NCBI GenBank assembly: GCA_947167515.1
Contig: CAMVIM010000016.1
Location: 1 to 64,000 of the forward strand
Direction: 5' to 3'
From: an uncultured Prevotellaceae bacterium
GTDB lineage: Bacteria; Bacteroidota; Bacteroidia; Bacteroidales; Bacteroidaceae
Length of the DNA stretch: 64,000 nucleotides
Position numbers and translations under genes: made by a program. Shown piece after piece: positions 6,926 to 59,161 of the stretch. Numbering within the stretch: position 1 is the first letter of the stretch; each line of letters begins with the position of its first letter. The notes under the pieces are model-generated. The model made no database searches. It worked only from the letters and a program-made list of their open reading frames with translations, and was not told the origin of the DNA.

Positions 6926-7011
6926 TTTGGTCATTTGGCCATATTTCGTTTGGTTATTTGGCTATATTCCGTTTGGTTATTTGGCTATATTTCGTTTGGT
7001 CATTTGGCCAC
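6926..7011. repeat. 23-bp-period tandem repeat array
   Basis: Three full units and a partial fourth: TTTGGTCATTTGGCCATATTTCG-type units start at 6926, 6949, 6972 and 6995. Units 2 and 3 carry TTATTTGGCT in place of TCATTTGGCC, and unit 4 breaks off after TTTGGTCATTTGGCCAC. Identity between units is high, so this is the freshest-looking of the five 23-bp arrays in the window. No inverted unit is seen. Confidence 0.9.
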
Positions 7012-26730: not shown

Positions 26731-26782
26731 AGGGCATAAATGTTTAGGTTCTTGTTTCGTATCTTCATTTTCCCCTCTTTCA

Positions 26783-26989
26783 TCATTTCAACGTTCTGTC
26801 AGTCGTCATTTCTCTGTTCTGTCAGGCATCATTTCAACGGTAATAACGAGTGAGAGAGAGGGGTTGATACGGGTGAGAGCGGGAGGAAGATACGGGTGTG
26901 AGACGGAGGTTGTGACGGAAGGAAGAACGTGGTGGATACGGGTGTGCGTTGTCGGTGGATACGGGTGAGCGTTCCCTGTGAACACGGGA
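26783..26989. repeat. Long 23-bp-period array upstream of upxY
   Basis: Nine consecutive 23-bp slots can be laid out. Slots at 26783, 26806 and 26829 start TCATTTC; slots from 26829 on carry (G)ATACGGGT or a decayed form near their right end, with exact GATACGGGTG at 26866, 26889, 26935 and 26958 (spacings 23, 46, 23) and decayed copies at 26843 and 26912. The unit content drifts along the array while the period stays fixed. It fills the space between the pgk terminator and the upxY promoter. Confidence 0.85.
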
Positions 26990-26995
26990 CTAAAC

Positions 26996-37375: not shown

Positions 37376-37440
37376 GTGTACCCCTCGACTACAAGACACC
37401 GTACCCCTCGGCTACGGTTCATTGTAGTCGAGGGGTACAC
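37376..37440. repeat. 23-bp-period array with an inverted third unit
   Basis: GTACCCCTCG occurs at 37378-37387 and 37401-37410, 23 bp apart. The third slot holds the unit flipped: TGTAGTCGAGGGGTACAC (37423-37440) is the exact reverse complement of 37376-37393. The middle unit is itself a short hairpin (CCGTA/TACGG). The whole can fold into a long stem with an inner hairpin. It lies just after the helicase stop, before the tRNA-Glu terminator. Confidence 0.9.
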
Positions 37441-50725: not shown

Positions 50726-50857
50726 CCAATGATTAATAGATTAATAAAAGATAAAAGAGGGAAGAAAGCACTCTGCCTTCCTCCCTTTACTCTTGAACTT
50801 TCGTTTCCTTTTTTCATCTGAAAACCAGTTTCCGATAAAAACGGTATGAAATTCTTG

Positions 50858-50931
50858 AGCCTCTTGTCGGATTCGAACCAACGACCCCGAGATTACAAAT
50901 CACGTGCTCTGGCCAACTGAGCTAAAGAGGC
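50858..50931 (-). tRNA. tRNA-Thr (TGT)
   Basis: Acceptor GCCTCTT/AAGAGGC, D-loop TAGCTCAGTTGGCCAGAGCA, anticodon loop TTTGTAA giving TGT, T-loop GGTTCGAATCC. A T-T mismatch sits in the anticodon stem. CCA not encoded. It starts 4 bases after the 3' end of the SRP RNA and probably shares its transcript. Confidence 0.93.
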
Positions 50932-50935
50932 GGGT

Positions 50936-51032
50936 GGGTAAGCTGACTACATCGCGCCGCTACAACCAAGTACCCTTGCTGCGGTCAAGCCCTGGGGGAA
51001 TTCCAAGGGAGCTGGCCGTATAGGACTTACCC
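50936..51032 (-). ncRNA. ffs: Signal recognition particle RNA (small bacterial type)
   Basis: About 97 nt. The ends pair (GGGTAAG with CTTACCC). The core has CCCTTGGAATTCCCCCAGGG and CTTGACCGCAGCAAGGGTA (51007 down to 50975), matching the SRP domain-IV pattern CCAGG...GCAGCAAGGGTA, where CCCTTG pairs with CAAGGG. The apical tetraloop is not the usual GGAA. Its protein partner gene ffh lies 1 kb away on the other strand. Confidence 0.85.
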
Positions 51033-51050
51033 GTTTTCGTTTTGCGGGTG

Positions 51051-51188: not shown

Positions 51189-51216
51189 TTTTCACTTTTC
51201 ACTCTTCACTTTTCAC
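51189..51216. repeat. Four heptad repeats TTTTCAC
   Basis: TTTTCAC, TTTTCAC, TCTTCAC, TTTTCAC in direct tandem, between the SRP RNA promoter and the dedA promoter. Read from the other strand it is GTGAAAAGTGAAGAGTG..., a common low-complexity phrase in Bacteroidales spacers. Confidence 0.8.
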
Positions 51217-51275
51217 TTTATTTCCGTACCGTTGAGTTCGTCGGAGGTACTCACGTTCGGAAAAACCCAAATATA

Positions 51276-59039: not shown

Positions 59040-59052
59040 CTTTAATGCAACG

Positions 59053-59121
59053 CCGTTGTATATTCAATCTGTACGCCGTTCCATTTGCATATTGTACGGC
59101 ACTCCATTCACATATTGTACG
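59053..59121. repeat. 23-bp-period tandem repeat array
   Basis: Three units end in TGTACG exactly 23 bp apart (GTACG at 59071, 59094 and 59117). Units 2 and 3 share CCATTxxCATATTGTACG; unit 1 and the partial fourth share (A/C)CGTTGTA. The array sits between the GH35 and ilvC terminators, where two operons converge. Confidence 0.88.
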
Positions 59122-59161
59122 ACGTTGTACATAATAACAAAAAACCGTTTCACCGAATAAC

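Follow-up and report, generated by a model that had tools for sequence, protein, structure and literature searches.

Classes of bacterial repeats are usually defined by their sequence. In the Bacteroidales, the closest described element that we found is BrickBuilt, a MITE of Porphyromonas gingivalis that, according to sections of its description, is intergenic and built from imperfect tandem units of 23 nt in which some positions are conserved and others vary (PMC4596501). The same sections depict BrickBuilt as one family with many dispersed copies that fold into hairpins and often lie near terminators; copies contain 1 to 22.8 repeats together with IS5-type terminal repeats and segments termed leader and tail, and 22-nt repeats are also mentioned for strain W83 (PMC4596501). 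Closest in behavior are REPINs and BIMEs, which portions of three papers describe as chromosomal, dispersed, short extragenic palindromes that are regularly spaced and occur in both orientations (PMC3116915, PMC2817692, PMC3733652).

The arrays analyzed here have in common with BrickBuilt a Bacteroidales host and 23-nt tandem repeats between genes at several places. They lie in a 64,000-nucleotide stretch of DNA from an uncultured Prevotellaceae bacterium, which we refer to in its entirety as the window. The original prediction held that the window contains five intergenic arrays that step by 23 bp and differ in their repeated words. All five arrays are present, and all lie outside the main ORFs of the window. 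A gapless self-match scan (threshold, 26 of 40 positions; periods 8 to 60) placed five clusters at period 23 and three at its harmonic 46, with no other period exceeding a single cluster, which bears out the claimed periodicity; these five clusters correspond to arrays 1, 2, and 5 plus array 3, which was counted twice. The repeat words are indeed unlike among the five arrays, but four of the five belong to families with further copies.

Reading of the sequence corrected array 1 from positions 81–172 to three TGTATCAAGGCTAA-type boxes on the plus strand (104–163) that start at 104, 127, and 150 with a pitch of 23 bp and fall within a scan cluster at 102–167. An inverted box, TGTTACAAGGCTAA on the minus strand at 84–97, lies outside the 23-bp register. 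The best partner of array 1 in L012 is 72% identical over 86 bp. Tandem Repeats Finder resolves array 2 (6926–7010) into 3.7 copies of TTTGGTCATTTGGCCATATTTCG at a pitch of 23 bp with 90% matches and 0% indels. Its fold z is −3.5, or −1.1 with other bounds, and this array (6926–7011) has no convincing partner in an 864-kb sample of the window genome, where some listed matches fall outside the array. Array 3 had been given as a single array at 26,783–26,989, which Tandem Repeats Finder divides in three. The scan places it at 26,763–26,995, with two parts at a pitch of 23 bp: a left part (26,763–26,845) of units that by eye are diverged and inverted, and a right part (26,834–26,995) of GATACGGGTG units. 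Array 3 belongs to a dispersed family and folds no better than its shuffles (z 1.2), which speaks against a long hairpin.

Array 4, previously reported at 37,376–37,440, consists of three near-palindromes, each 15 bp long, with unrelated spacers of 8 bp between them. A box pattern search locates box 1 (GTACCCCTCGACTAC) at 37,378–37,392 and box 2 (GTACCCCTCGGCTAC) at 37,401–37,415, both on the plus strand, and the inverted box 3 at 37,424–37,438 on the minus strand. Tandem Repeats Finder and the self-match scan overlooked array 4, which escapes the latter because its third box is inverted; the box pattern detects it. The entire element forms one long hairpin (−49.4 kcal/mol; z −9.7). Array 5 (59,049–59,133) contains TGTACGCCGTTCCATTTGCATAT-type units at a pitch of 23 bp, as seen by both Tandem Repeats Finder and the scan, and is a member of a dispersed family. 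It lies in a convergent gap, is flanked by other hairpins as judged by eye, and has a fold z of −0.8. No Rfam match was found at any array in the window or at five other loci. Elsewhere in the window (50,857–51,039), a tRNA-Thr gene adjoins a Bacteroidales small SRP RNA gene.

Periods were tabulated in the window plus 40 further stretches of the window genome (3.68 Mb, 74 contigs), a sample of 864 kb or about 23% of the genome, in which gene calls came from a simple script based on ORFs and codons, so that single arrays can be misassigned as intergenic or coding. The sharp excess at 23 bp that had been anticipated genome-wide is there, and it is mainly intergenic: intergenic DNA contains 33 arrays at period 23, 8 at 24, 1 at 22, and 3 at 46, followed by 8 at period 14, 7 at 21, and 6 at 9, while coding DNA contains five arrays at 23. 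The 45 arrays of the first group occupy 4.1 kb of the 85 kb of noncoding DNA. Array-3-family matches known beforehand lay in three of the 40 stretches; leaving these stretches out gives 27 arrays at 23, 7 at 24, 3 at 46, and 1 at 22 (27 of 38 at 23). That the peak arises by chance or as a detection artifact has a negligible probability. Nothing that we found supports it, the caveats being the home-made gene calls and the non-independence of arrays within a genome. Against it, the first 464 kb of the sample shuffled within 100-bp blocks yielded no array at 23. Reversed-pattern controls for the F1, F2, and F4 pair searches described below returned zero in every genome searched, and the reversed F1 box pattern matched once in the window genome compared with 46 times for the true pattern. 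Moreover, samples from six more distant Bacteroidia (G139, G079, G153, G110, G108, and G063; 560 kb) contain a single array at 24 and none at 22 or 23, and 150 kb of E. coli likewise contains none at 22 or 23.

Most arrays are members of dispersed families. Forty-one of 44 window-genome arrays have matches elsewhere in the sample, a few of them outside the array itself; three have none. For the array 3 family, 13 additional matches (69–84% identity) were found at 11 genomic sites, and these matches extend over some 200 bp. In the 864-kb sample, array 5 has 17 partner matches and array 1 has two. For the families inspected, homology mostly ends within about 20–45 bp of the array. Copies of the array 3 family also lie no more than a few hundred bases from contig starts (G000 C57:103–338, C30:102–299, and C8:53–221), where they perhaps break the assembly. 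The original prediction had favored a common mechanism "rather than descent from one element." The second half of this statement is not supported in that form: most arrays in the sample have homologous copies elsewhere, so that descent can explain the common period inside a family. Indeed, descent from a founder copy, with no reader of the spacing, could by itself be the source of within-family constancy, a point that counts against the reading we prefer below.

Array 4 belongs to family F1, whose 46 box matches in the window genome (some counted on both strands) are distributed over 16 loci. The register is exactly 23 or 46 bp at 15 of the 16 loci; one pair is 45 bp apart. The F1 doublet is present in 13 of 45 genomes of the genus. 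A search that allowed spacers of 0–30 bp gave the same tallies as one fixed at 8 bp (G016, 23+25; G031, 11+14; G042, 30+35), so that every pair in these three genomes has a spacer of exactly 8 bp, and all 138 F1 matches listed are 38 bp long. The script required a minimum of three boxes; of the 30 F1 elements that it dissected, 28 have three and two have four. In the window genome, two boxes are exact at several loci, some of which have a degenerate third box. Boxes occur in both orientations, and homology mostly stops within about 20–30 bp of the array.

Comparison of 92 F1 boxes with a CTC/GAG center revealed that positions 1–10 and 13–15 are nearly invariant (7–9 by selection), and that the choice of base at positions 11 (G or A) and 12 (C or G) is independent of the opposite arm. 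Positions 4 and 12 are paired at a frequency of 0.51 compared with 0.50 expected. This independent variation of the arms disfavors a hairpin constraint inside the box. The spacers show a weak R-N-Y-R-Y-R-N-Y bias and are no more alike within an array (4.1 of 8 positions) than between arrays (4.6 of 8); 45 of 56 are distinct, and they do not pair across the element. Because spacers within an array are unrelated, the units are not simple duplications, and together with the nearly fixed number of boxes this sets F1 apart from an ordinary minisatellite or VNTR. To the left of F1 elements the sequence is A-rich and to the right it is T-rich, and the outer flanks match slightly better within a locus than across loci (23 of 2000 shuffles reach the observed value).

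Family F4 is built on an unrelated box, GGTsTGAsTCAsACC. When spacers of 0–20 bp were allowed, 663 F4 pairs were found in 16 of 45 genomes: 226 have a spacer of 8 bp, 436 have 9 bp, and one, in G042, has another length. The two spacings segregate by genome. Six genomes (G008, G011, G015, G016, G024, and G044) are of the 8-bp type and ten are of the 9-bp type, and only 10 of the 663 pairs show the minority spacing of their own genome. Nineteen of 20 F4 elements with at least three boxes (again a requirement of the script) have three. Copies have about 20–35 bp in common outside the boxes, and those from seven inspected loci have more. In the 19 three-box copies, inner arms match at a frequency of 0.76 within a locus and 0.70 across loci (2 of 2000 shuffles), the next 15 bp match weakly within a locus (56 of 2000 shuffles), and the outer 14 show no such match. 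F4 spacers do not pair across the element; a long hairpin with paired spacers is thus ruled out for F1 and F4 alike. F2 (TGTAGCAnnTGCTACA) was found at six places in two genomes with spacers of 0–25 bp allowed, and all six have a 7-bp spacer and a pitch of 23 bp. By inspection, F4 and F5 have unrelated boxes and similar outer ends (CCTCAAAAxC inward; L022:13,700–13,815, L016:2790–2900, and L024:1413–1507), which may hint at common termini.

In the window genome F1 has a pitch of 23 bp and F4 a pitch of 24 bp. A single genome-wide ruler of 23 bp is therefore ruled out; pitch belongs to family and genome together, and any reader of the spacing would have to be either several proteins or one that is tolerant. 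The first half of the earlier statement, that a common mechanism or constraint underlies the period, stands up better: the period peak is sharp, unrelated families are alike in period, and spacing outlasts the sequence of the spacers, all of which points to a common machine or constraint. Could that mechanism be a replication or recombination process, as had been suggested, in which any sequence can give rise to tandem copies of a set length? We consider this improbable. Such a process would account for equal length over unrelated sequences, but a fresh duplication would copy the spacers, and those within F1 arrays are unrelated. In addition, F1 elements with three or more boxes nearly always have exactly three, unlike products of slippage, and one F4 box stands at 23 bp in some species and at 24 bp in others.

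Orthologous loci indicate which parts of an element persist. Three F1 boxes at 23 bp are present at the tRNA-Glu locus in each of the window, L131, L035, and L030. The window and L131 match at 42 of 45 positions in the boxes (taking the better strand for each box), 6 of 16 in the spacers, and 17 of 40 in the flanks; box 3 is inverted in the window and L030 and not in L131 or L035. The corresponding values are 42 of 45, 11 of 16, and 19 of 40 for L025 and L140, and 45 of 45, 16 of 16, and 36 of 40 for L131 and L035, which are close and nearly identical. At other sites an array is present in one species and absent from another. Between a gene pair that is 7 bp apart in L040, L047 carries about seven 22-bp units in a gap of 312 bp, a contrast that shows only presence versus absence of an array, and a gap of 208 bp in L036 corresponds to one of 27 bp in L038 at a shared gene pair. 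The 3′ side of pgk was compared among the best 80 pgk relatives, which are mostly ruminant-gut Bacteroidaceae and Prevotellaceae metagenome genomes. Mutually unrelated 22- or 23-bp arrays occur there in the window, L030, L045, L046, L071, and L091, and no clear array is found in 44 other relatives (49 of 80 loci compared). Downstream gene order differs in L088, so L088 offers no usable empty-site comparison here. In L040 (17,904–18,080) and L047 (18,460–18,617), one and the same site carries two 22-bp families arranged head to tail, with pitch kept while the bases differ.

Copying within a genome combined with rapid turnover between species would be expected of non-autonomous dispersed elements, and the exact pitch, free spacers, conserved boxes, and freely varying arms would be expected of proteins bound side by side on double-stranded DNA. 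Our preferred reading, to which we assign about an even chance of being correct, joins the two: the arrays would be small, non-autonomous, chromosomal interspersed elements of Bacteroidales whose adjacent boxes would be occupied by a putative pitch-fixing protein. Each copy is a short ladder of family-specific imperfect palindromes of about 14–19 bp (three in F1 and F4), spaced rigidly, center to center, at 22, 23, or 24 bp with nearly free spacers and placed usually in gaps with a gene end. Protein subunits on neighboring boxes, about two helical turns apart, may touch one another, and it is this contact that would fix the pitch. The same complex would likely be the means or condition of spread, or of function at gene ends. 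The boxes are dyads: a dyad test over 114 arrays of period 22–24 gave a mean z of 2.53, with 74 arrays at p ≤0.05; without F1 the mean is 2.22 (n = 92), compared with 0.98 for control arrays of other periods (n = 63). A direct observation against this reading is that not all families fold or form clear palindromes; arrays 3 and 5, for example, do not fold, and 40 of the 114 arrays miss p 0.05 in the dyad test. Nor was a trans-acting or attached cognate gene found in the samples, where no neighbor gene family stands beside more than three arrays and where genes between same-family arrays have no 9-mers in common among the seven neighboring array pairs listed. One F4 copy had no match to phages or plasmids at E 1e-3, and patterns for F1 and for F4 with an 8-bp spacer had no exact matches in viral contigs.

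Conserved boxes, free spacers (45 of 56 distinct in F1), and exact pitch would also be expected of immobile operator arrays, in which several multimeric DNA-binding proteins (nucleoid organizers, insulators, or gene-end roadblocks) occupy sites whose copies arise by local selection. The placement of arrays is partly consistent with this alternative, which strikes us as unlikely but as the most serious of the competing explanations. Divergent gaps hold 5 of 38 arrays in the window genome, 3 of 23 in G042, and 1 of 43 at the pgk loci, compared with divergent shares of all gaps of 51/220, 32/114, and 109/387 (one-sided p 0.10, 0.08, and 1e-5, respectively). Pooled over the three samples, 9 of 104 arrays lie in divergent gaps versus 192 of 721 gaps, fewer than expected. 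This avoidance is not seen in five other genomes (3 of 13 arrays versus 44 of 150 gaps). Two features of F4 further argue against local selection at immobile sites: the likeness of copies over about 20–35 bp outside the boxes and beyond, and a copy number that ranges from 0 to 178 pairs (the latter in G016) among species of one genus, as in spreading elements.

A third possibility is that the arrays act as RNA or single-stranded hairpins at 3′ ends, either as terminators or as stabilizers of transcripts, with pitch a by-product. In tandem gaps, arrays tend to lie nearer the end of the upstream gene (17 of 30 in the window genome, 11 of 11 in G042, and 24 of 30 at the pgk loci). Five folded copies of F1, F4, and F5 are very stable (z −8 to −11; z −6 to −11 when F2 is included), and both the A-rich and T-rich flanks of F1 and the within-locus matching of its outer arms and of the F4 inner arms fit such a role. 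However, F1 and F4 spacers are unpaired, the arms of the F1 box are not kept complementary, and fold z lies below −3 for 25 of 44 window-genome arrays and not for the other 19. Frequencies of AAAA on the left and TTTT on the right are 0.16 and 0.16 over 45 window-genome arrays versus 0.18 and 0.18 in random intergenic DNA (both together, 0.09 versus 0.04), and a terminator signature is not general to the arrays; the T-rich flank that follows the stem in intrinsic terminators is seen at F1 and not in arrays generally. A hairpin, moreover, does not require an exact pitch of 22–24 bp. We regard a role as 3′ hairpins as doubtful, somewhat more so than operator arrays.

Among related genomes, 23 bp prevails in the genus of the window, but other genera are at 22 bp, so that 23 is not universal. 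Intergenic DNA of G042, a member of the window genus, contains 23 arrays at period 23, 1 at 22, and 2 at 24; its stretches were selected around F1, and 20 of the 23 arrays at 23 are F1 and three are not. Five further genomes of the genus, sampled blind to arrays, contain 12 arrays at 23, 5 at 22, 1 at 24, and 1 at 46. G037 is contrary within the genus, with three at 22 and one at 23; a span of less than 300 bp in this genome (L203:1626–1915), perhaps an acquired stretch, contains three different 22-bp arrays. Conversely, L039 has arrays at 23 and falls outside the genus proxy, which was defined as loci with at least 90% pgk identity. Within periods 21–24, 22 is commonest in four other genera of the family (G107, G167, G200, and G204; 3, 3, 2, and 3 arrays) and in G136 from another family of the order (2 arrays); G205 of the same family has none at 22 or 23.

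For the lineage tally, "simple" arrays with a shorter internal period were set aside (one at 22 among genus proxies; five at 22 and one at 23 elsewhere). The genus and its proxies then have 77 arrays at 23 and 7 at 22, and other Bacteroidales have 3 at 23 and 49 at 22. Removal of G042 leaves 54 versus 6 in the genus against 3 versus 49 elsewhere (Fisher p 4e-21), and removal of every F1 array with G042 kept leaves 50 versus 7 in the genus (p 1e-19), p values that are overstated since arrays of one genome are not independent. The tally shows a preference for 23 bp in the window genus and for 22 bp in the other Bacteroidales sampled, and the difference survives without G042. Heptamer-type intergenic arrays (periods 7, 14, 21, and 28) are also common in the relatives, with 27 at period 14 and 15 at period 21; examples lie in L063, L080, and L036 and at 51,189–51,219 of the window.

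It is tempting to speculate, at less than even probability, that these arrays represent an undescribed class of interspersed element across Bacteroidales in which pitch rather than sequence is the conserved heritable signal. Boxes would turn over between families and species while a putative multimeric DNA-binding machine holds every family to an exact pitch (22, 23, or 24 bp), with lineages changing pitch by single base pairs. What is invariant here is geometry, across many unrelated families, which suggests that a putative protein in Prevotella-related gut bacteria reads spacing more than sequence. F4, with one box family, two spacings by species, and almost no mixing, provides a natural experiment on spacing measurement; its switch opens the question of how multimeric DNA-binding or transposition complexes measure distance and may offer a route to a new mobilization or chromosome-organizing protein in common gut bacteria. 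Apart from the P. gingivalis repeats, a search of mainly open-access literature turned up no account of a pitch class of this kind in Prevotella or Bacteroidales. "Bacteroid" and "Prevotella" are absent from the main text of a satellite survey (PMC6749651), and the available part of a further paper contains nothing on period (PMC5771137).

Several known systems resemble the arrays in part, and each differs in definable ways. The precedent in P. gingivalis invoked by the original prediction is apt as an analog, but the terminal inverted repeat of BrickBuilt, GAGACCTTTGCA, is not enriched near the arrays: with up to two mismatches, it occurs within 300 bp of 2 of 90 arrays and of 2 of 90 random places. 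In contrast to BrickBuilt, there are many families here, nearly all dissected F1 and F4 copies have three boxes, the dyad boxes of F1 are separated by unrelated spacers, and the pitch is 22, 23, or 24 bp.

Iterons and the end sites of transposons such as Tn7 and Mu place several protein sites of about 22 bp side by side at origins or transposon ends, whereas the present arrays stand alone between genes. CRISPR arrays likewise combine repeats with unrelated spacers of constant length; here the boxes are 15 bp, the spacers are 8–9 bp, and there are mostly three boxes per locus at dozens of loci, with box orientation that flips.

With respect to the REP family, a RAYT (Y1 transposase, PF01797) was not found in the window genome draft or in six of nine other carriers; three have a match, of which those in G016 and G015 exceed the cut-off (all drafts are 81–99% complete). 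In all, 7 of 10 carriers examined yielded no REP-type transposase, and membership in a REP/RAYT system is rejected for most of them. Like REPINs and BIMEs, the arrays are made of short extragenic palindromic units in both orientations. Where REPINs are doublets, the dissected F1 and F4 copies, for which at least three boxes were required, are nearly all triplets, and in contrast to REPINs and BIMEs alike one pitch is common to unrelated box sequences.
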